Below, one piece after another: positions 2,210-36,449 of a stretch of DNA of 64,000 nt. Origin of the DNA: Mesorhizobium sp. RMAD-H1 (GTDB taxonomy: Bacteria; Pseudomonadota; Alphaproteobacteria; Rhizobiales; Rhizobiaceae). Made by a program: the position numbers and the translations under genes. The stretch lies in contig NZ_JACHWN010000002.1 of NCBI RefSeq assembly GCF_014191375.1, positions 496,001 to 560,000 on the forward strand. The letters run 5' to 3'. Every line of letters begins with the position of its first letter. The stretch's first letter is position 1. The notes below the pieces were generated by a model. It was not told the origin of the DNA. It made no database searches and worked only from the letters and a program-made list of their open reading frames with translations.

Positions 2210-2968
2210 TCAGAACGAGCGCATGTAGACCTTCACCTTGCTGCAATAGTTCGCAGAGATCGGGTTCATGCGGGTGGCGCCATGGCCGGCATTGTATTTC
2301 AGGATCGTGCCGCAGGTCGTGCCGCCGCTGAGCTTGCGCGCCATGGCAAGATATTTCATGCCGTACTGCACATTGGTGGCGGGATCGTAGAGCCCCTTGG
2401 CCGAACCGGTATAGCCGAGGCCCCGCGCCGTCGAAAGCTTGAGCTGCATCAGGCCGATCTCGCCCGCCGCGCCCCGCGCATCGGCCCGATAGCCGCTTTC
2501 GTGGCGGACCACCGCATGGGCGAGCGACGCCGGTACGCCATAGGTGGCGGCATAGCGGTTGATGATGCTGGCATAAGGCGTGCCGCCCTGCCGCGACGTC
2601 GTGACCTTGGCGGTAACAGCCTTTTTGGAAACATTTTTCCTGGAAACGACCTTGACCGTCTCCTTCTGGGAAACGGCTTTGGCCGTCTTCTTCCTGGAAA
2701 CGACTTTGGCCGTTTTCTTTCTGCTGGTCGCCTTCACGACCTTCTTCTTGGCGGGCGCCGCCTTGCGGGCCGTATGGCGCTTCTTATCGCCGGTTTTCGC
2801 TTCGGCTTTGGCAGCTTCCGCGGCCTCCGCCGCCGCTGCCTCTCTCTTTGCCTTCAAAATTGCGGCAATGCTCGTTTTCTCGATTGCCGGAGCACTGTAG
2901 GCCACATTCGAGCCAAGCAATCCCATTGCGCCGACGAGGGCGCACACAACACTAAATTTTTTACTCAT
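2210..2968 (-). CDS. Lytic transglycosylase, SLT domain
   Basis: A 252-residue secreted murein transglycosylase. Residues 1-26 form a signal peptide (MSKKFSVVCALVGAMGLLG...). Residues about 30-130 are Ala/Lys rich and include several degenerate repeats of the type VSRKKTAK, probably a flexible, cationic wall-binding linker. The C-terminal SLT domain carries the catalytic-glutamate motif HAVVRHESGY, then GEIGLMQL and the Tyr/Asn segment LKYNAGHG. It would cleave the glycan strand, leaving 1,6-anhydro-MurNAc ends, in the periplasm. Neighbouring genes include another wall enzyme (AmiD-type amidase). Confidence 0.87.
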   Translation of the reverse strand: MSKKFSVVCALVGAMGLLGSNVAYSAPAIEKTSIAAILKAKREAAAAEAAEAAKAEAKTGDKKRHTARKAAPAKKKVVKATSRKKTAKVVSRKKTAKAVSQKETVKVVSRKNVSKKAVTAKVTTSRQGGTPYASIINRYAATYGVPASLAHAVVRHESGYRADARGAAGEIGLMQLKLSTARGLGYTGSAKGLYDPATNVQYGMKYLAMARKLSGGTTCGTILKYNAGHGATRMNPISANYCSKVKVYMRSF

Positions 2969-3207
2969 ACCCTAACCGTTTGATTTGTTTCTTATAGGGG
3001 GCCGCCCCTCTGGTGAGGAAATCCCGGCCCGGTCTTTGCCCCTATGCGAGACGGCAGATCACAGCACCGCCTCAGGAAACATGGCTGTTGATCTGACGGC
3101 GAAATGCAGCCGAAGATTGGTTCGGAAAATAACTTTATATTAACGATTGCAACAAAATGCCCCGATCGCAACGATCGGAAACCGGAAAATCTTTATTTAT
3201 GAAGGAT

Positions 3208-5977: not shown

Positions 5978-9724
<3,747 letters not shown>

Positions 9725-9883
9725 CTGGACGGTCTTTACGCGAAATCATTGTAAAAGAGGCCGTTTTCTGGGATAATGCGTGCAGTGCGTACGAACACCC
9801 GTTGAGGAGTTCGAGACGTATCACGCGCAAGCTCCTCACGGGCATCCGGTTACGCATAACCGTAGCCTGAAGGAGATTTTCTC

Positions 9884-10258
9884 ATGGCAACCACCAATGA
9901 TATGGGCCGCATGGGGCTGATGCAGCACCGTAGCTGGGAGGATATCGCCATGATGGCTCTGGGAGCCATCGTCTTCCTGTCGCCGTTCTTCTATCCCTTG
10001 GGCGGCAACGTGGCCATCGTCCTCAGCGCCGTGATCGCCGGCGCCGTCATCATGGCGGTCGGCATCATGGAAATGGTATCGCTCCGCCGCTGGGAGGAGA
10101 TGCTGGCATTCCTCGCCGGCCTGTGGATGATCATCGCGCCCTATGCTCTGAGCTATATGGGCCCGCTGCGCACCTGGCATGTCGCGCTCGGCCTCGTCGT
10201 TGCACTCCTCGCCGCCTTCCAGATGTGGCAGGACCGCAACCGCCGCTTCGACACGTAA
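9884..10258 (+). CDS. SPW-repeat membrane protein
   Basis: A 124-residue inner-membrane protein with four hydrophobic segments arranged as two tandem halves, each starting with an aromatic-acidic cap (SWEDIAMMALGAIVFLSP and RRWEEMLAFLAGLWMIIAP). This duplication is the mark of the SPW repeat family, whose function is unknown. GAAGGAGA provides a strong ribosome-binding site 6-8 nt before the ATG. It appears monocistronic, with a hairpin terminator at 10281. Confidence 0.8.
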   Translation: MATTNDMGRMGLMQHRSWEDIAMMALGAIVFLSPFFYPLGGNVAIVLSAVIAGAVIMAVGIMEMVSLRRWEEMLAFLAGLWMIIAPYALSYMGPLRTWHVALGLVVALLAAFQMWQDRNRRFDT

Positions 10259-10280
10259 GATCGCGACGCCGCCGAAATCC

Positions 10281-10305
10281 ACCGCCGGAGCCCCGCTCCG
10301 GCGGT
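10281..10305 (+). terminator. Terminator after SPW gene
   Basis: Strong stem ACCGCCGGAG / CTCCGGCGGT with a short loop followed by TTGCTT. It isolates the SPW gene from btaA. Confidence 0.8.
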
Positions 10306-10349
10306 TTGCTTCCTCAGAAACCTGTTTATCCGGCCCGACATGAGCCCCT

Positions 10350-10378
10350 TCGTCACGGGGCTGTTACATGCCGGTGAT
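10350..10378 (+). promoter_or_regulatory. Candidate Pho box upstream of btaA
   Basis: Three heptamers spaced exactly 11 bp apart are seen: TCGTCAC (10350), CTGTTAC (10361) and CGGTGAT (10372), each matching the rhizobial PhoB half-site CTGTCAT at 4-5 of 7 positions. Phosphate-starvation induction of btaAB is established in Sinorhizobium meliloti, which makes the weak match more credible. The box ends about 40 nt before the btaA start codon. Confidence 0.55.
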
Positions 10379-10416
10379 ACGCGGGGCGAACTCTTTCCCA
10401 GGAAGGGATTCGTGCC

Positions 10417-11673
10417 ATGTCCGCAATCAGGTCGAAGACGAAGCAAGCCGCCCCGCGCAATGAAAAGGTGAAAAGCGCCGTACAGCGCAATTCGCTGTTC
10501 TCGAAAGCGGGGATATCGGAACGGCTCTTCGCCCATCTGTTCAAGGGGCTGGTCTACCCGCAGATCTGGGAAGACCCGGAAGTCGACATGGAGGCGCTTC
10601 AAATCGGCCCCGGCCACCGTATCGTCACCATCGCGTCGGGCGGCTGCAACGCGCTCTCCTATCTGACCGCCGATCCGGCAAGCGTCGAGGCCGTCGATTT
10701 GAACCAGGCGCATGTGGCCTTCAACCGGCTGAAACTCGCCGCGCTTGCCCATCTGCCCAATTATGACGCCTTCTACCGCTTCTATGGCACCGCCGACGAC
10801 AAAGCCAATCTCAAGGCCTATGAGCGGTTCATCCGCCCGCATCTCGACCCGCAGAGCCGCGCCTATTGGGAAAAGCGGATGCTCTCCGGGCGCCGCCGCA
10901 TCTCCATCTTCTGGCGCGATCTCTACCGCCACGGCCTGCTCGGCATCTTCATCGGCATGGGCCACCGCGTCGCCCGCCTCTACGGCATCGACCCGCGCGA
11001 TATCCTTAAAAGCCGCACTCTCGAGGAACAGCGCACCTTCTTCGACACAGCGCTTGCGCCTCTCTTCGACAAGCGCATGATCCGCTGGGCGACGGCGCGC
11101 AAATCCTCGCTGTTCGGCCTCGGCATCCCGCCGCAGCAATATGATGCGCTGGCAACCGCCGGCAATGGCGACATGGCCGCCATCCTGCGCGGCCGGCTGG
11201 AGAAGCTCGCCTGCGGCTTTCCGCTCAACGAGAACTATTTCGCCTGGCAGGCCTTCGGCCGCGGCTATAGCAGCGATGCCGAGACCGGCCCGCTGCCGCC
11301 CTATCTCTCCCGCGCCAACTTTGACAGAGTGCGCGCCCGCGTCGCCCGCATGAGCGTCGTCAACGCCTCCTATACGGAATTCCTTGCCGCCAAGCCCGAT
11401 GCCTCGGTCGACCGTTTCATCCTGCTCGACGCGCAGGACTGGATGAACGATACGCAGTTGAACGATCTCTGGCGCGAGATCACCCGCACCGCCGCACCGG
11501 GGGCGCGCGTCATCTTCCGTACCGCCGCCGAGCCGAGCCTGCTGCCCGGCCGCGTTGTTTCAGCCATTCTGGACCGCTGGGACTATCGCGAGGAACAGTC
11601 TCGTGCGCTGCACGCCCGCGACCGCTCCTCGATCTATGGCGGCTTCCATCTCTATTGCCTGAAGGACGCCTGA
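10417..11673 (+). CDS. btaA: S-adenosylmethionine:diacylglycerol 3-amino-3-carboxypropyl transferase
   Basis: A 418-residue DUF3419-family enzyme that moves the aminocarboxypropyl group of SAM onto diacylglycerol, giving diacylglyceryl homoserine, the first step in betaine lipid (DGTS) synthesis. Visible features are the SAM-binding segment TIASGGCNALSYL (about residue 70) followed by the acidic VEAVDLNQAHVAF, and a C-terminal second Rossmann-like segment FILLDAQDWMND. The length is usual for BtaA. The next gene (btaB) starts 2 nt after the stop. A phosphate-control site is proposed upstream. Confidence 0.93.
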   Translation: MSAIRSKTKQAAPRNEKVKSAVQRNSLFSKAGISERLFAHLFKGLVYPQIWEDPEVDMEALQIGPGHRIVTIASGGCNALSYLTADPASVEAVDLNQAHVAFNRLKLAALAHLPNYDAFYRFYGTADDKANLKAYERFIRPHLDPQSRAYWEKRMLSGRRRISIFWRDLYRHGLLGIFIGMGHRVARLYGIDPRDILKSRTLEEQRTFFDTALAPLFDKRMIRWATARKSSLFGLGIPPQQYDALATAGNGDMAAILRGRLEKLACGFPLNENYFAWQAFGRGYSSDAETGPLPPYLSRANFDRVRARVARMSVVNASYTEFLAAKPDASVDRFILLDAQDWMNDTQLNDLWREITRTAAPGARVIFRTAAEPSLLPGRVVSAILDRWDYREEQSRALHARDRSSIYGGFHLYCLKDA

Positions 11674-11674
11674 C

Positions 11675-12337
11675 ATGTTCGGCAAGGCGAAAGCGATCGA
11701 CCATGGCAGCCTGATGGACCGCGTCTATCGCCGCCAGCGCCATTTCTACGATGCGACGCGCAAATATTACCTGCTCGGCCGCGACGAGATGATAGCCGGC
11801 CTGCGCATTCCCTCGGGCGGCAGCGTCCTTGAAATCGGCTGCGGCACCGGGCGCAATCTCATCAAGACGATGAATCAGTTTCCGAGCGCCGAGCCTTACG
11901 GCATTGATATATCGCGCGAAATGCTCGTCACCGCGCAAAAGGCGGCCGAGCGCGCAGGGCTCGGCGACAGGCTGCGGCTCGCCTATGCCGACGCTGCCCG
12001 TTTCGACCCAGAGGCACTGTTCGGACGCAAGGATTTCGACCGCATCTTCATCTCCTATGCCGTCTCGATGATCCCGCAATGGCAGGCCGTCATGCGCGAG
12101 GCGGTCGCCCATCTCGCCCCCGGCGGCGAGCTGCATGTGGTTGATTTCGGCGATCTGGAAAGGCTGCCGCGCTGGTTCCGCGCAGCCCTCTACCAGTGGC
12201 TCGAATGGTTCCACGTCACACCACGCAACGATCTCTTCGAGATCGCGAGCACGATCGCTGCCGATGCGGGTGCGCAAGCCGAGGCACATGTGCTCTATCG
12301 CGGCTTTGCCTGGATTTCGGTCATCAGGCGCCGCTGA
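11675..12337 (+). CDS. btaB: Diacylglyceryl homoserine N-methyltransferase
   Basis: A 220-residue class I SAM methyltransferase with motif I VLEIGCGTGRNL near residue 50, YGIDISREML as the acidic strand and FDRIFISYAVSMIP as the post-motif. Because it directly follows btaA with only one intervening base, it is assigned as BtaB, which methylates diacylglyceryl homoserine three times to DGTS. The N-terminal RQRHFYDATRKYYLLGRDE is typical of this family. Together the two genes let the cell replace phospholipids by a phosphorus-free zwitterionic lipid. Confidence 0.92.
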   Translation: MFGKAKAIDHGSLMDRVYRRQRHFYDATRKYYLLGRDEMIAGLRIPSGGSVLEIGCGTGRNLIKTMNQFPSAEPYGIDISREMLVTAQKAAERAGLGDRLRLAYADAARFDPEALFGRKDFDRIFISYAVSMIPQWQAVMREAVAHLAPGGELHVVDFGDLERLPRWFRAALYQWLEWFHVTPRNDLFEIASTIAADAGAQAEAHVLYRGFAWISVIRRR

Positions 12338-12422
12338 AACCCTTTTTCAACTTGAAAATAGATCATCCGCTAGTGACGAGCGCTGGCGGATCGCGTAACG
12401 CTTTGTAAACGCTGTTTCGAAT

Positions 12423-13274
12423 ATGGCCTTATTCATGAAACGCATCGTCACCGTCCTTTTGTCCCTGTTGCTGTCGGCCTGTACGTCGGTCGATTACAAT
12501 TTCACCGAAGCGACGCGGACCATCCGGACGGAACGCAAGATGACGTTCTCCTACCCGGCTGTCCGCGCACCCAAATTCGATGACCGCAAGCCGCACGACT
12601 GGAACGGCAAGACGCCCTGGCATTATCCCGTCCATGGCACCGATGTCTCCAAATACCAGGGGACGGTGGACTGGAAGACCGCGCGCGACAGCGGCATCTC
12701 CTTCGTCTTCATCAAGGCGACGGAAGGCGGCGACCGGGTGGATGAGCGCTTCGCCGAGCATTGGGCGGGAGCGCGGGCCGTAGGCCTGCCGCGCGGCGCC
12801 TATCATTTCTATTATTTCTGCCGGCCGGCGATCGAGCAGGCACAATGGTTCATCCGCAACGTGCCGCGCGACCCGGATGCGCTGCCGCCCGTTCTCGACA
12901 TGGAATGGAACCACCTTTCACCCACCTGCAAGAAGCGGCCGGATGCGGCGATCGTGCGTCGCGAGATGAAGATATTCCTCGATGCGGTCGAGCGTCATTA
13001 TGGCAAGCGCCCCGTCATCTACACGACCATCGATTTCTTCGACGACAATGATCTGCGGCGCATGAGGGAATATCCCTTCTGGCTGCGCTCCGTCGCCGGG
13101 CATCCGAACGAGAAATATGGCGAGCACCCTTGGACGTTCTGGCAATATACGGGGACCGGCAGCGTGCCGGGCATCAGGGGCGATGCCGATATCAATGTCT
13201 TTGCCGGCAGCCCCGAGCAGTGGCGTGCATGGGTCGAGGGCGGCAAGGAAACGCAGACCATTGCTTCGCAATGA
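12423..13274 (+). CDS. GH25 muramidase, lipoprotein
   Basis: A 283-residue glycoside hydrolase family 25 (lysozyme-type) enzyme. The signal segment MKRIVTVLLSLLLSAC ends in a lipobox, so the mature protein is probably lipid-anchored. The catalytic domain starts at GTDVSKYQGTVDW (about residue 73) and includes FVFIKATEGGD, GAYHFYYFCRP, VLDMEWNHL (the DXE catalytic pair) and WTFWQYTGTG, all typical of GH25. An ATG four codons downstream (12435) could be the true start; no strong ribosome-binding site settles it. It probably cleaves the MurNAc-GlcNAc bond of peptidoglycan. Confidence 0.9.
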   Translation: MALFMKRIVTVLLSLLLSACTSVDYNFTEATRTIRTERKMTFSYPAVRAPKFDDRKPHDWNGKTPWHYPVHGTDVSKYQGTVDWKTARDSGISFVFIKATEGGDRVDERFAEHWAGARAVGLPRGAYHFYYFCRPAIEQAQWFIRNVPRDPDALPPVLDMEWNHLSPTCKKRPDAAIVRREMKIFLDAVERHYGKRPVIYTTIDFFDDNDLRRMREYPFWLRSVAGHPNEKYGEHPWTFWQYTGTGSVPGIRGDADINVFAGSPEQWRAWVEGGKETQTIASQ

Positions 13275-18698: not shown

Positions 18699-19105
18699 CT
18701 GCCCTCCAAGCCGGTCTGGCGGGGGGAGCCTAACAAGGGTTCACGACAGAAAAAAGCATTAACCGCGACGGATCCGAGGCTTCTTTCCCTTTTGGCCTGC
18801 GCGCCGAGGGGGTTGCGATGCCATCAGCACGTCCACTGCTCCGCCGCCAATCCGAAAATGGCAAAATTCTGTTTTCCGTTCGGGTTGCTGTCATAGTTCA
18901 CGAAAAGTGAATGAGGGAGGTAAACGTTTTTTTTCAATCGTTTAGGCCGCGAAAAGGAAATATTTTCCTCATGATTGTCGCAGTGCAGCACGAATTCCGC
19001 TTTTTTTGTGACACAAGAGAGCATAGATTCTCCCGGGTTAACCCAGCGCCATTGGATGATCATCCGATTGTTGTATGAGCTATGGCGCGCGAAGGAGGCA
19101 GACCG
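18699..19105. other. Intergenic region with palindromes
   Basis: No convincing long gene is seen in this divergent intergenic region. It is somewhat AT-richer than its surroundings and contains the perfect palindromes GGGTTAACCC (19036-19045) and GGATGATCATCC (19054-19065), which could be operators, and an AAACG...CGTTT inverted repeat near 18923-18945. A 79-codon minus-strand frame (18824-19063) lacks family features and a ribosome-binding site. Confidence 0.5.
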
Positions 19106-19192
19106 ATGGGACTTACACGTTCGCTTAATGTCCTGATGATCTGTGCAGCGTTCGCATTCGTCGGTGCGATGGTGATGGGCCTTCTTCCATAA
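19106..19192 (+). CDS. 28-residue single-pass membrane micro-ORF
   Basis: A short frame begins with MGLTRSLNVLMICAAF and ends in MVMGLLP. It is preceded by a near-perfect ribosome-binding site (GAAGGAGG, 8-9 nt spacing) and its hydrophobic core of about 18 residues would span the membrane once. Its stop overlaps a second AAGGAGG. A strong terminator follows at 19249. Its function is unknown. The strong signal and clean isolation favour a real gene over chance. Confidence 0.65.
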   Translation: MGLTRSLNVLMICAAFAFVGAMVMGLLP

Positions 19193-19248
19193 GGAGGCCT
19201 GACAGACTGCGATAGGGGGTCCTTAATCCCTGGGGTAGAACAAAAGGA

Positions 19249-19278
19249 AAAAGCCCGGCATAGCGCCCGGGCTTTTTC
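19249..19278. terminator. Bidirectional terminator between micro-ORF and metF
   Basis: Hairpin AAAAAGCCCGGC / GCCCGGGCTTTTT with T-runs in both directions. It serves the plus-strand micro-ORF and the minus-strand metF. Confidence 0.88.
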
Positions 19279-32883: not shown

Positions 32884-33573
32884 TCAGGCAAGCCATTGGT
32901 CGTAATCGGACACCAGCAGGTGGAGCGGCGCAACATCCTCCTCGATGGTCGAGAAACGCCCGATCTTCTCGCGGAAGATGTTGTCGGTCAGATCGTCATT
33001 GACGGTCGAGACCTCGCCGATCAGCACGTCACCGCCCTCGCCCCAGAAGGCATGCCAGTTGCCCGGCAGGAGCGTGACGCTCTCGCCCGGCTTCAACTTC
33101 AAAAGCCCGCCCGCCTTCAGCGTGACGAGGCGGCCGTCGGTCGCCACCGTCACGTCGCTCTCCTCGTCCACGCTGCCGTCGGGCAGCGAATTGAAGAGCT
33201 CGAGCGTCAGCGTCGCGCCGCCACGGTTGATGATGTCCTCCGCCTTCACGATATGGCGGTGCATCGGCGAAAGCTGGTCCTTGCGCGAGATCATGATCTT
33301 CTCGGCATAGAGCATGCCGGTGCCCTTCTTCAGATCCTCCGCATTGCCATTGCGCGTGGTGAAGAGAAAGAGCCCGAGATCGGCGAACTTGCCCTGCCCG
33401 TAATCGGTGATGTCCCAGCCCAGCCGCGCATCGCGGATCGCCGCCGCGTCGCTCGCCGTGCGCGCCTTCATCTCCTCCGGCGACCAGTAGGCGAAGGGCG
33501 GCATGACATAGCCGAAAGAGCGGATGAAGGCGTCGCTTTCGCGGATGATCTCGTTGATTTCTGAGCGTTTCAT
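32884..33573 (-). CDS. D-lyxose ketol-isomerase family protein
   Basis: A 229-residue cupin-type sugar isomerase resembling YdaE / D-lyxose isomerase. The N-terminal INEIIRESDAFIRSFGYVMPPFAYW and the conserved pieces LGWDITDYGQGKF and MHRHIVKAEDIINRGGATL (metal-binding His and Glu) match the family, as does PGNWHAFWGEGG. It would interconvert D-lyxose and D-xylulose, or D-mannose and D-fructose. It could make a fuel for the adjacent reductase, but no transporter or sugar kinase is nearby. Confidence 0.88.
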   Translation of the reverse strand: MKRSEINEIIRESDAFIRSFGYVMPPFAYWSPEEMKARTASDAAAIRDARLGWDITDYGQGKFADLGLFLFTTRNGNAEDLKKGTGMLYAEKIMISRKDQLSPMHRHIVKAEDIINRGGATLTLELFNSLPDGSVDEESDVTVATDGRLVTLKAGGLLKLKPGESVTLLPGNWHAFWGEGGDVLIGEVSTVNDDLTDNIFREKIGRFSTIEEDVAPLHLLVSDYDQWLA

Positions 33574-33760
33574 GTTTCTATCCTCCCCATCGGGATTATT
33601 TCCAGGCTGGCGGCATGTGGTAGCCGCCTTCCCGCCCTCGTGACAATCCTAAAAGTGTGATGAATGCCACATTCCCCCATTCGTAAACCGTGTCGTCTTT
33701 ATGCGAAAGCGATGTCGTTTCTGCATGCGCGTCAGGGCCCGCCCGCTGATTAGATCATGA

Positions 33761-33971
33761 CAATTCAGGTGCAGCCATTTCGGTGGAGTGGAGCTCGCTC
33801 CACCTGGGATGGCGATAATTGGGAAATCGGTGGGAGACCGATGCTGCCCCCGCAACGGTAACGGAGTTGAAGCGGCGATAGGACCACTGGGCTGTTCCAG
33901 CCTGGGAAGGTGCCGCAATCATCCGCAAGGATCGCTCCGCAGCCCGGAAACCAGCCTGAAGGACAGAATTC
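33761..33971 (+). ncRNA. Cobalamin riboswitch
   Basis: The signature core is unmistakable: TTGGGAAATCGGTG, ACCGATGCTGCCCCCGC and AACGGTAAC in order, then the B12 box AGCCCGGAAACCAGCCTG (33941-33958). Outer P1 pairing is visible as AATTC (33762-33766) with GAATT (33966-33970). It lies on the plus strand about 120 nt before gbcA, with no other gene between. The expression platform (33972-34092) cannot be folded confidently by eye. A cobalamin-bound switch normally lowers downstream expression. Confidence 0.94.
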
Positions 33972-34092
33972 GACTGATCGCGGCGGGCGGTCAAGCGGAG
34001 TCCCGAGCGTGTCATGACTCTGACCGGGGTCGTGCGCCGTCCCAGGCCTCTTCTCCCCCTCGCCGGCCCACCAGATGACGCGAGGCAAAGCC

Positions 34093-35340
34093 ATGGACGT
34101 TCGCAATGAAATGCTGGGATATCTGAAAGGGCGCGATGCCGGTTTCAGCCTGGAGCAGAAATTCTATACCGACCCCGATTATTTCAGGCTGGATCTCGAG
34201 CATATCTTCTATCGCGAATGGATTTTCGTCGGTCATGATTGCGAGTTGCCGAAAACCGGCAGTTATCTGACCGTACAGATCGGCGCCTATCCGGTGGTGG
34301 TGGTGCGCGACGCGCAGGGCGGCATCCGCGCCTTCCACAATTCCTGCCGCCACCGCGGCTCGCGCATCTGCTCGGGCGAAAAGGGAACGGCGGCGAAACT
34401 CGTCTGCCCCTATCATCAGTGGACTTATGAGCTGGACGGCCGCCTGCTTTTCGCCCGCCAGGTCGGCCCGGATTTCAACCCCGCCCAATACGGCCTGAAG
34501 CCGGTTCATTGCGAGAGCGTGGCGGGCTGCATCTATGTCTGCGTCGCCGATGATGCGCCGGATTTCGGCGCGTTCCGCGCGACCGTGGAACCCTATCTCG
34601 CGCCTCATGACATCGGAAATGCCAAGGTCGCCCATGAGAGCACCATCATCGAGAAGGGCAATTGGAAGCTCGTCTGGGAGAACAACCGCGAGTGCTATCA
34701 CTGCGCGGCCAATCATCCCGAGCTCTGCCGCACCTATCCCGAGGCGCCGACGGCGACGGGCGTCCAGGGCGTGATGGAAGACCCGGAAATCAATGAACTC
34801 TGGCGGAACTGCGAGACGGTCGGCCTGCCCGCGAAATTCCATATTGCGGAGGACGGCCAGTACCGCGTCACCCGCATTCCGCTCCTGCGCGGCGCGGTCA
34901 GCTACACCATGTCGGGCAGGCCTGCGGTGAAGCGGCCGCTGGGGAACCGGGTTTCCGGCGACACCAATATCGGCGCGCTGCTGCTCTTCAACTACCCCTC
35001 CACATGGAACCATCTGATGGCCGATCACGCGATCTCCTTCCGCGTGCTGCCGATCAGCGCCGACGAGACGCAGGTCACCACCAAATGGCTGGTCAACAAG
35101 GATGCGGTCGAAGGCGTCGATTACGACATCGACGAGCTGGCCCATGTCTGGATCGAGACCAATGACCAGGACCGCCGCATCGTCGAGGAGAACGCCGTCG
35201 GCATCAGATCGCCCGCCTATCAGCCCGGCCCCTATTCGGTCGAGCACGAAGGCGGCGTGATGCAGTTCCTCGAATGGTACACGAATTTCATTACCCCGCG
35301 CCTTGAGGGGGAAACCGTTCCGCTCAGCCGCGTTGCGTGA
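34093..35340 (+). CDS. gbcA: Glycine betaine demethylase, Rieske oxygenase subunit
   Basis: A 415-residue Rieske-type oxygenase. The [2Fe-2S] ligands are seen in NSCRHRGSRICS and CPYHQWTYEL, and the mononuclear iron pocket in ENNRECYHCAANHPEL. The order and wording (YTDPDYFRLDLEHIFYREWIF, EGVDYDIDELAHVW) match GbcA, which removes a methyl from glycine betaine as formaldehyde, using O2 and electrons from GbcB. A stachydrine-type demethylase is an alternative. ATG at 34093 has GAGG about 9 nt upstream; an in-frame ATG at 34075 is less likely. The upstream cobalamin riboswitch is unusual for this gene. Confidence 0.88.
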   Translation: MDVRNEMLGYLKGRDAGFSLEQKFYTDPDYFRLDLEHIFYREWIFVGHDCELPKTGSYLTVQIGAYPVVVVRDAQGGIRAFHNSCRHRGSRICSGEKGTAAKLVCPYHQWTYELDGRLLFARQVGPDFNPAQYGLKPVHCESVAGCIYVCVADDAPDFGAFRATVEPYLAPHDIGNAKVAHESTIIEKGNWKLVWENNRECYHCAANHPELCRTYPEAPTATGVQGVMEDPEINELWRNCETVGLPAKFHIAEDGQYRVTRIPLLRGAVSYTMSGRPAVKRPLGNRVSGDTNIGALLLFNYPSTWNHLMADHAISFRVLPISADETQVTTKWLVNKDAVEGVDYDIDELAHVWIETNDQDRRIVEENAVGIRSPAYQPGPYSVEHEGGVMQFLEWYTNFITPRLEGETVPLSRVA

Positions 35341-35354
35341 AGGAGAAGCAGGTC

Positions 35355-36449
35355 ATGAGCGTCATGCCGTCTCATCCCATACGACATCTCGACGAGATGC
35401 TGCCCTGGAACGACAAGCTGCAGATGCTGGAATGCATCTCGGCCGTCGAGGAGGCGCCCGATGTCATGACCTTCTCCTTCCGCACGCCGGATCAGAACTG
35501 GTTCCGCTACGCGCCGGGCCAGTTCGTCACGCTTGAGCTGCCGGTCTCGCCCGAGCCGGTGATGCGCACCTATACGCTCTCCTCCACCCCGTCGCGGCCC
35601 TATTCGATCGCGGTGACGGTCAAGGCGCAGCAAGGCTCGGTGGGGACGCGCTGGATGCTCGACCATTTGAGGCCGGGCATGCGGATCAGGGCCTACGGTC
35701 CTGCCGGCGATTTTTCCCTGGCGAGCCGTCCGGCCGAAAAATATCTCTTCATATCGGCGGGTTCCGGCATCACGCCGATGATGTCGATGACCCGCTGGCT
35801 GCACGATTGCGCCCCATCGACGGACACCATCTTCATCAACTGCGCCCGCCGCCCGGACGAGATCATCTTCCATGACGAGCTGCGATTGCTCGCCAGCCGG
35901 ATGGAGGCACTGAAGCTCGCCTTCATCGTCGGGCGATCCCTGCCGCGCCATGGTTGGAGCGGTCTCCATGGCAGGATCGACCGGGCGAGGCTGGAGCTGA
36001 TCGCGCCCGACATCCACCATCGCACCGTCTTCTGCTGCGGGCCCGAACCCTTCATGCGCGCCATGCGCGAGGCGCTGCAGGCGATGGGCTTCGACATGGC
36101 GCGCTATCATCAGGAGAGTTTCCAGCCCGCCGCCGAAACCGTGGGGACGCCTCCCTCGCCCGCGAGCGGTCCCGAAACCGCGGCGCAGGCCGCCACGGTG
36201 CGGTTCACCCGCTCCGGCGTCGAAACGGCATGCGCGGCCGATGACACCATTCTCCTTGCGGCCCGCAGCGCCGGGCTGAAGATCCCGAGCGCCTGCGAGT
36301 TCGGCGTCTGCGGCACCTGCAAGGTGCTGTGCAGCGGCGGCGAAACCGTGATGAACCACAATGGCGGCATCCGCGACGACGAGATCGCGGAAGGCTATGT
36401 CCTCGCCTGCTGCACCCGCCCGGTTGGACCGGTGGAGATCGACGTCTGA
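35355..36449 (+). CDS. gbcB: Glycine betaine demethylase, ferredoxin-NAD(P)H reductase subunit
   Basis: A 364-residue reductase with three modules: an FAD-binding barrel (MRTYTLSSTPSRPYSI), an NAD(P)-binding domain (ISAGSGITPMMSM; FCCGPEPFMRAM), and a C-terminal plant-type ferredoxin domain with CEFGVCGTCKVLCSG and a final Cys pair (LACC). It supplies electrons to GbcA. AGGAG lies about 10 nt before the ATG at 35355, and it follows gbcA by only 14 bp, so both should be one transcript. The arrangement matches other GbcB proteins. Confidence 0.9.
   Translation: MSVMPSHPIRHLDEMLPWNDKLQMLECISAVEEAPDVMTFSFRTPDQNWFRYAPGQFVTLELPVSPEPVMRTYTLSSTPSRPYSIAVTVKAQQGSVGTRWMLDHLRPGMRIRAYGPAGDFSLASRPAEKYLFISAGSGITPMMSMTRWLHDCAPSTDTIFINCARRPDEIIFHDELRLLASRMEALKLAFIVGRSLPRHGWSGLHGRIDRARLELIAPDIHHRTVFCCGPEPFMRAMREALQAMGFDMARYHQESFQPAAETVGTPPSPASGPETAAQAATVRFTRSGVETACAADDTILLAARSAGLKIPSACEFGVCGTCKVLCSGGETVMNHNGGIRDDEIAEGYVLACCTRPVGPVEIDV

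Follow-up and report, generated by a model that had tools for sequence, protein, structure and literature searches.

We analysed a stretch of 64,000 nucleotides (nt) from Mesorhizobium sp. RMAD-H1 (contig NZ_JACHWN010000002.1, positions 496,001 to 560,000; hereafter the window), in which a cobalamin riboswitch stands on the plus strand ahead of a two-gene Rieske oxygenase/reductase operon of the GbcAB type. An Rfam covariance scan (cmscan) of the window returned one cobalamin riboswitch, a match to RF00174 of 89.4 bits against a gathering score of 31.5 (E 9.1e-21) that spans the whole model (1-189) and ends 119 nt before the oxygenase start. It lies in the region around 33740-34000 where the preliminary description had read the core and B12 box of such a switch on the plus strand, and both parts are indeed there. 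A search of the whole genome (G000) found the element again and gave a total of six cobalamin riboswitches.

Table 1 Features of the riboswitch and the operon in the window, in order of position
Feature	Position	Strand	Basis
TGTCG motif pair, 22 nt apart, probable activator operator	33691..33717 (motifs at 33691, 33713)	+	Conserved with and without riboswitch
TTAGAT, possible -10 element, 37 nt after second TGTCG	33750..33755	+	Recurrence in relatives
Cobalamin riboswitch aptamer (RF00174)	33775..33973	+	cmscan, 89.4 bits
Conserved core GCTGCCCCCGCAACGGTAA, including L5 loop CCCCCGC	33843..33861	+	Used with B12 box as search pattern
B12 box AGCCCGGAAACCAGCC	33941..33956	+	Sequence
P13/L13 hairpin of the expression platform, loop CGGCGGG, can pair with L5 via GCGG/CCGC	33972..33992	+	Contact from sequence only
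Predicted partner CCTCGC pairing with the ribosome-binding site	34058..34063	+	Minimum-energy fold with P13 formed
Ribosome-binding site GCGAGGC	34080..34086	+	Position agrees with conserved GAGGA of relatives
GbcA-type Rieske N-demethylase, oxygenase subunit	34093..35340, frame open from 34075	+	Pfam Rieske, Ring_hydroxyl_A; NF058607, 517 bits
GbcB-type reductase (FAD, NAD, 2Fe-2S domains)	35337..36449	+	Pfam FAD_binding_6, NAD_binding_1, Fer2; NF058606, 364.5 bits

GbcA and GbcB are the best NCBIfam models for the two operon proteins, Pfam finds the Rieske and mononuclear iron domains together with an adjoining GbcB-type reductase, and the oxygenase is the sole match to the GbcA model in G000. 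Where the preliminary description had spoken of two Rieske genes, only the first encodes a Rieske oxygenase; the second encodes a flavin/ferredoxin reductase with FAD, NAD and 2Fe-2S domains, and its start (35337) overlaps the end of the oxygenase gene (35340). The oxygenase most likely begins at the methionine given in Table 1, judging from the many relatives that align from that residue and from the GAGG ribosome site before it. The solved structures closest to it are 3n0q, 3vca and 4qup, the latter two being stachydrine demethylases.

The arrangement is conserved. As relatives of the oxygenase we took the best 80 of 594 from one species-genome scan (66-85% identical) and searched upstream of each with a core plus B12-box pattern. 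The pattern occurs just upstream in 52 of the 80, with the end of the B12 box 98-226 nt before the gene match, which disposes of the possibility that relatives have no conserved riboswitch upstream of gbcA. Rfam confirmed all ten positives tried; the other 42 rest on the pattern alone, each with no mismatch in the B12-box pattern and at most two in the core. At the 28 pattern-negative loci Rfam found no cobalamin riboswitch. Given the 89.4 bits and the conserved place, a chance match is ruled out.

Positives include Mesorhizobium, Rhizobium, Sinorhizobium/Ensifer, Shinella, Phyllobacterium, Labrys, Aminobacter, Inquilinus and others. The negatives comprise the 11 loci nearest the window, from Brucella, Ochrobactrum, Falsochrobactrum, Pseudochrobactrum and records labelled 'Rhizobiales bacterium', 'Bacillus subtilis' and a Brucellaceae assembly, and 17 mostly Rhizobium/Agrobacterium loci. 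The switch is thus present in G000 and absent from the genomes closest to it by this protein, and the same is seen in the family sample described below (L120-L122). On a Phaeobacter plasmid (L107, 2695-2897), a riboswitch of 120.3 bits precedes a Rieske demethylase that belongs to the same family but is more distant (57.6% identical), so the arrangement is not restricted to Hyphomicrobiales. No viral contig turned up in the search for the arrangement among viral contigs. Two further observations were made on the negative loci. The record titled Bacillus subtilis strain SK6B4 (L017) has a locus 80% identical at the protein level with a Brucellaceae-like gene order, and its title or assembly looks wrong. 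In addition, the reductase gene is absent beside the oxygenase in 13 of the 17 switch-less Rhizobium/Agrobacterium-type loci (L029, L030, L054, L056, L059, L063, L076, L078, L079, L082, L083, L086 and L087) and is kept in all 52 switch loci.

Co-occurrence with the corrinoid betaine pathway

G000 also encodes a predicted B12-dependent counterpart of GbcAB. Between the gene for an ATP-binding cassette (ABC) transporter ATPase of the betaine/proline/choline type and the gene for a RACo-type activator lies a cluster with bmt/mtgE, mttB, a riboswitch with a btuB-type gene, an MtgC-type corrinoid protein gene, a DUF1638 gene and a pterin-binding methyltransferase gene. The bmt product passes its cut-off (568 bits against 338), the mttB product is a PF06253 protein with 791.8 bits, and the products of bmt, the pterin-binding methyltransferase gene and the ABC ATPase gene are the only ones in the cluster over their NCBIfam cut-offs. 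Judged by sequence, the cluster corresponds to MtgE, MtgB, MtgC and MtgD of the aerobic betaine pathway. According to the available text of PMC12478193, this MtgBCD-type pathway was shown in Ruegeria pomeroyi and its genes are colocalised in S. meliloti; G000 likewise has mttB, the mtgC-type gene, bmt (mtgE), the mtgD-type gene and the RACo-type activator gene clustered. The riboswitch-btuB unit stands between mttB and the mtgC-type gene (L093, 7499-9831, equal to G000:C2:366499-368831), so that B12 uptake is embedded in the corrinoid betaine cluster.

We compared the two systems in a first set of 50 hand-chosen genomes, which covers 27 of the 28 negative and 23 of the 52 positive loci (metagenome assemblies and L020 were left out). 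The MttB family (PF06253) is present in 23 of 23 genomes with the gbcA switch and in 1 of 27 without it, and many of the MttB-bearing genomes have several copies. The 24 genomes with MttB are also those with an MtgC of 80% identity or higher; in the other 26 the MtgC query matched only a MetH-size protein at 33-36% identity. None of the 50 genomes is without a cobalamin riboswitch; the negatives have therefore not lost B12 regulation in general, and a simple loss of this kind was rejected as an explanation, each of the 27 switch-negative genomes keeping at least one other cobalamin riboswitch.

For a second sample we drew evenly on the family of the window (131 genomes, 106 genera), with a threshold of E 1e-170 or better for the gbcA-type gene and of E 1e-60 or better for MtgC. 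The gene was found in 48 genomes and MtgC in 92, and all 48 leaders were scored for the switch with Rfam. Switch and MtgC occur together in 30 of these 48, neither occurs in 15, MtgC alone in two and the switch alone in one; by MtgC status, the switch is present in 30 of the 32 genomes that have MtgC and in 1 of the 16 that lack it, the remaining 15 of the 16 being switch-less. Fisher's test gives p 1.9e-9, with relatedness ignored and L166 included. On the gene tree of the 48, each of the two traits needs 11 changes, and of six well-supported independent pairs differing in MtgC the switch differs the same way in a mean of 5.4 and the opposite way in none. On a tree of 91 rows, made without five near-copies and L166, the corresponding figures are 4.4 of 5 and none. 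MtgC is no commoner in genomes with the gbcA-type gene (32 of 48) than in those without it (60 of 83), indicating that the switch, not the gene, follows MtgC.

Control traits do not track the switch. In 47 of the 48 genomes (G376 was dropped as a paralogue), NrdJ is present in 31 of 31 that have the switch and in 14 of 16 that lack it, and metE in 6 of 31 and 1 of 16, respectively. A MetH-type match occurs in 49 of the 50 genomes of the first set, with and without the switch; it is missing in G037, which has metE. NrdJ, MetE and MetH were thus rejected as the trait explaining the switch, and of the traits tried only MttB/MtgC follows it.

Proposed isozyme switching and its alternatives

With a probability of roughly 0.8, we read these data as isozyme switching, in which GbcAB would be the B12-free, oxygen-dependent alternative to the corrinoid-dependent MtgB/MtgC system and would be repressed when cobalamin is present. 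The reading is built on the RNA, its conserved place, the leader structure of the relatives, the corrinoid cluster, the co-occurrence and an island of isozyme genes, all computed here. The mechanism that we infer, with its ligand, its sign of regulation, its substrate and its physiological role, would run as follows. When corrinoid is plentiful, it would bind the aptamer, and a kissing contact between L5 and L13 would hold the P13 hairpin; the gbcA ribosome-binding site would then stay paired and little oxygenase would be made, while betaine methyl groups would pass via MtgB, MtgC and MtgD to tetrahydrofolate or homocysteine. Under a shortage of cobalamin this route would fail, the leader would refold, and the oxygen-dependent, B12-free GbcAB would demethylate betaine.

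Leaders were compared in the 52 switch-bearing relatives and the window (53 in all), and folding in the relatives agrees with such a platform. Each has a P13 hairpin after the aptamer, with the loop CGGYGGG on a stem of at least five pairs, and the stems show 14 different sequences. The L13 loop can pair with L5, a kissing contact read from the letters only. Where P13 is constrained to form, the ribosome site has a mean unpaired fraction of 12%, compared with 38% after shuffling of the sequence that separates P13 from this site (12 shuffles per leader), and in 50 of the 53 leaders its exposure lies below the mean of that leader's own shuffles. The clearest case is L031, where the predicted exposure rises from 0.22 to 0.94 when P13 is forbidden. 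For the leader family, translational repression by cobalamin is likely on these folding models.

The classic examples of B12-independent enzymes with a B12-dependent partner are encoded by nrdAB and metE, and their place beside gbcAB is of interest. Two loci, a Mesorhizobium metagenome assembly (L034) and Mesorhizobium sp. J18 (L035), carry switch-nrdA-nrdB, switch-gbcA-gbcB and a convergent metE with a switch of its own. A Labrys locus (L058) has switch-nrdAB and switch-gbcAB on a contig that stops after gbcB, and in two genomes of one other genus (L168, L169) a metE with a switch, here by pattern only, faces gbcAB with a switch. All seven metE genes found in the 47 genomes have the switch pattern just upstream. 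In G000, the other five switches precede a btuB-type gene, bluB, a corrinoid/siderophore-type ABC transporter, a cbtA-cobU-cobW-cobN stretch and metH, which apart from metH are ordinary targets; a glycine riboswitch (L002, 400-487) lies about 1 kb from the bluB riboswitch. The isozyme logic of metE and the B12 element is stated in the available text of PMC2211319, and a metE/metH pair under such logic is put to the test in that of PMC9600662.

A number of observations weigh against isozyme switching. When P13 was forbidden, exposure of the ribosome site rose by more than 0.1 in only 14 of the 53 leaders and fell in two, and in the window's own leader the unpaired fraction is 0.19 with P13 formed, 0.19 with P13 forbidden and 0.24 in shuffles, with no difference between states. 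Static folding makes no switch visible in the remaining leaders or in that of the window, where translational repression by cobalamin is only a possibility. In the corrinoid cluster of G000, the products of mttB, mtgC, the RACo gene and btuB fall below the cut-offs of the NCBIfam models that name them, and so do the window oxygenase and reductase with respect to the equivalog cut-offs of GbcA (670) and GbcB (500). Exceptions to the co-occurrence exist on both sides. L157 has a switch (2889-3083) without MtgC; with three changes in the core, three in the B12 box and 61.3 bits, it looks like a decaying copy. MtgC without a switch is found in L053 (G013) and L142 (G388), which are true exceptions, and in L166 (G376), whose gene groups with the stachydrine enzyme, while L125 combines MtgC with a switch whose L5 loop is altered (68.8 bits). 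A class-wide even sample yielded the gene in just 5 of 241 genomes at E 1e-130, too few to be informative; all five have MtgC, three with the switch (the window, L116, L119) and two without (L117, L118). In the tree, the latter two fall in the stachydrine-enzyme group, in which the Phaeobacter locus L107 has a switch. Finally, the sign test on the independent pairs gives a median p of 0.06 on both trees, with only 6 and 5 pairs, so that the pairs alone are not conclusive.

This last point bears on a different account, in which switch and MtgC both go back to the ancestor and their joint loss in a few clades had unrelated causes. It draws further on the first set, where the losses cluster in the nearest relatives of the window (Brucella/Ochrobactrum type) and in Rhizobium/Agrobacterium. 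We regard shared ancestry as very unlikely to be the whole cause, however, since the gene trees require 10-12 interleaved changes per trait, no independent pair goes the opposite way, and the sole switch-positive genome without MtgC has the decayed switch. Another account would have the switch serve one-carbon supply and methionine synthesis, with the corrinoid betaine route irrelevant: while MetH is idle, GbcAB would yield formaldehyde, sarcosine and glycine, and would thereby also feed tetrapyrrole and corrin synthesis. The close placement of metH and gbcAB in L021, L023, L033 and L072 agrees with this, as does the report that MtgBCDE is itself a methionine synthase in Ruegeria (available text of PMC12478193). 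The near-universal MetH-type match and the distributions of NrdJ and metE given above nevertheless make it quite unlikely, for only MttB/MtgC tracks the switch. The preliminary description had proposed that GbcAB is raised at low cobalamin and had offered two motives; the genome comparison favours one, replacement of a B12-dependent demethylation route, and does not favour the other, because MetH limitation does not explain where the switch occurs.

The substrate could also be a different quaternary amine, for instance proline betaine (stachydrine), with a different MttB member as corrinoid partner. The window oxygenase shares about 58% identity with the stachydrine-type enzyme of S. meliloti, and the multiple MttB copies noted above leave room for such a partner. 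The shortfall against the GbcA model points the same way, and it is shared by all ten relatives tried (375-535 bits). On the other side, a tree with 25 relatives sets the window clade apart from the group with the S. meliloti stachydrine-type protein (support 89, not starred), and the window clade holds a Paracoccus gene whose neighbours, namely a BCCT transporter gene, fdhA, etf genes, folD, purU and a gene for a large FAD-dependent oxidoreductase, fit glycine betaine breakdown, though Rfam finds no cobalamin riboswitch at that Paracoccus locus. We therefore hold another substrate to be unlikely, and the most credible of the rival accounts. The preliminary description had named the next plus-strand gene gbcA; it is a Rieske oxygenase whose best model is GbcA, and with its score below the equivalog cut-off we call it GbcA-type only and assign no substrate.

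The sign of regulation could be reversed, such that cobalamin turns gbcAB on to burn surplus betaine. We consider this highly improbable, given that in nearly all leaders a formed P13 leaves the ribosome site less exposed than in shuffles and that the other genes with a cobalamin riboswitch, that is metE, nrdAB, btuB, cob genes and bluB, are usually repressed. In its favour stands metH in G000, which lies behind a riboswitch of 78.2 bits (L096, 7887-8154; G000:C4) about 530 nt before the gene (8686-12462); a riboswitch ahead of a B12-dependent metH is not simply explained by repression, and an activating or indirect role is possible there. An activating corrinoid riboswitch is, moreover, known (available text of PMC10653944). 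Taken together, the finding is real and conserved, and it is best accounted for by a new isozyme pair controlled by a riboswitch of a known class.

Sites upstream of the riboswitch

The TGTCG pair of Table 1 recurs in the relatives irrespective of the switch. At least two copies are present at 45 of 52 riboswitch loci and at 28 of 28 loci without, with means per locus of 2.0 and 2.7, respectively, against 0.28 and 0.27 in shuffles, and the two copies are spaced 20-24 nt apart, mostly 21-22 nt, in 42 of 52 and 28 of 28. The occurrence of the pair at both kinds of locus suggests a transcription start ahead of the riboswitch and the participation of an activator, perhaps a betaine-responsive one. 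The string TGTCG does not occur in the available text of PMC5806209, which treats the GbdR site. TTAGAT is found upstream at 34 of 52 riboswitch loci against 4 of 28 others, most commonly 37 nt after TGTCG. A scan of 33560-34120 for promoters of sigma-70 consensus and for terminators found none anywhere, including between the switch and gbcA; since it was blank upstream of the switch too, the missing promoter between switch and gbcA says little. Elsewhere in the window, at 19084-19275, Rfam matches the Rhizobiales small RNA Atu_C9 with 47.3 bits.

Relation to known systems and significance

The closest parallels are the RF00174 elements before metE (with metH) and before nrdAB (with nrdJ), where, as with gbcAB, the B12-independent enzyme is switched and a B12-dependent counterpart is present in the genome. 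Unlike in those cases, the switched enzyme is here a Rieske N-demethylase that depends on oxygen, and its counterpart is a corrinoid methyltransferase system of several proteins. With the GbcAB glycine betaine monooxygenase of Pseudomonas and Chromohalobacter the window operon shares the two-subunit architecture, whereas its proteins score below the curated cut-offs and it carries a cobalamin riboswitch. The Stc2/Stc4 stachydrine demethylase of S. meliloti, the relative at about 58% identity, has an adjoining reductase gene annotated stc4; in contrast to it, the window protein sits in a separate tree group, and the S. meliloti locus (L108) is without a riboswitch.

A riboswitch before SMc00982 of S. 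meliloti was listed from Rfam in 2007 and 2008, with no function proposed in the available texts (PMC2245857, PMC2573895), and that gene is described as 'likely encoding a dioxygenase' in the available text of PMC2848018. It is probably the same arrangement as in the window, SMc00982 being a presumed ortholog. A search of the openly licensed literature found no work joining 'cobalamin riboswitch' with 'gbcA' or with 'glycine betaine' and 'Rieske', and, in the texts consulted, none interpreting the SMc00982-type riboswitch or naming gbcA as its target. The account of MtgBCDE, in its available text (PMC12478193), does not deal with riboswitch regulation of gbcAB; 'riboswitch' occurs there once, in the title of a reference.

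If isozyme switching is correct, oxygen-dependent versus corrinoid-dependent betaine demethylation would join the short list of isozyme pairs under cobalamin riboswitches, and plant-associated bacteria, nitrogen fixers among them, would link betaine breakdown to their B12 status. A ready test also follows for the aerobic MtgBCD pathway described in 2025, whose presence in a genome the switch marks. More tentatively, and at somewhat less than even odds, the Hyphomicrobiales may respond to B12 famine with a coordinated programme that calls on nrdAB, metE and gbcAB as alternative enzymes, each under a cobalamin riboswitch of its own, and for betaine the choice of enzyme would set the fate of the methyl groups. 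With B12 present, the methyl group would be kept as methyl-tetrahydrofolate or methionine, and with B12 absent it would be released as formaldehyde, so that B12 status would decide whether betaine is a methyl donor or a fuel. Betaine raises the B12 yield of industrial strains of Hyphomicrobiales, and a programme of this kind could bear on that effect. For S. meliloti, the arrangement may provide a second, B12-free betaine route, and it may offer a clue to how betaine is connected with B12 production in Ensifer-type strains.

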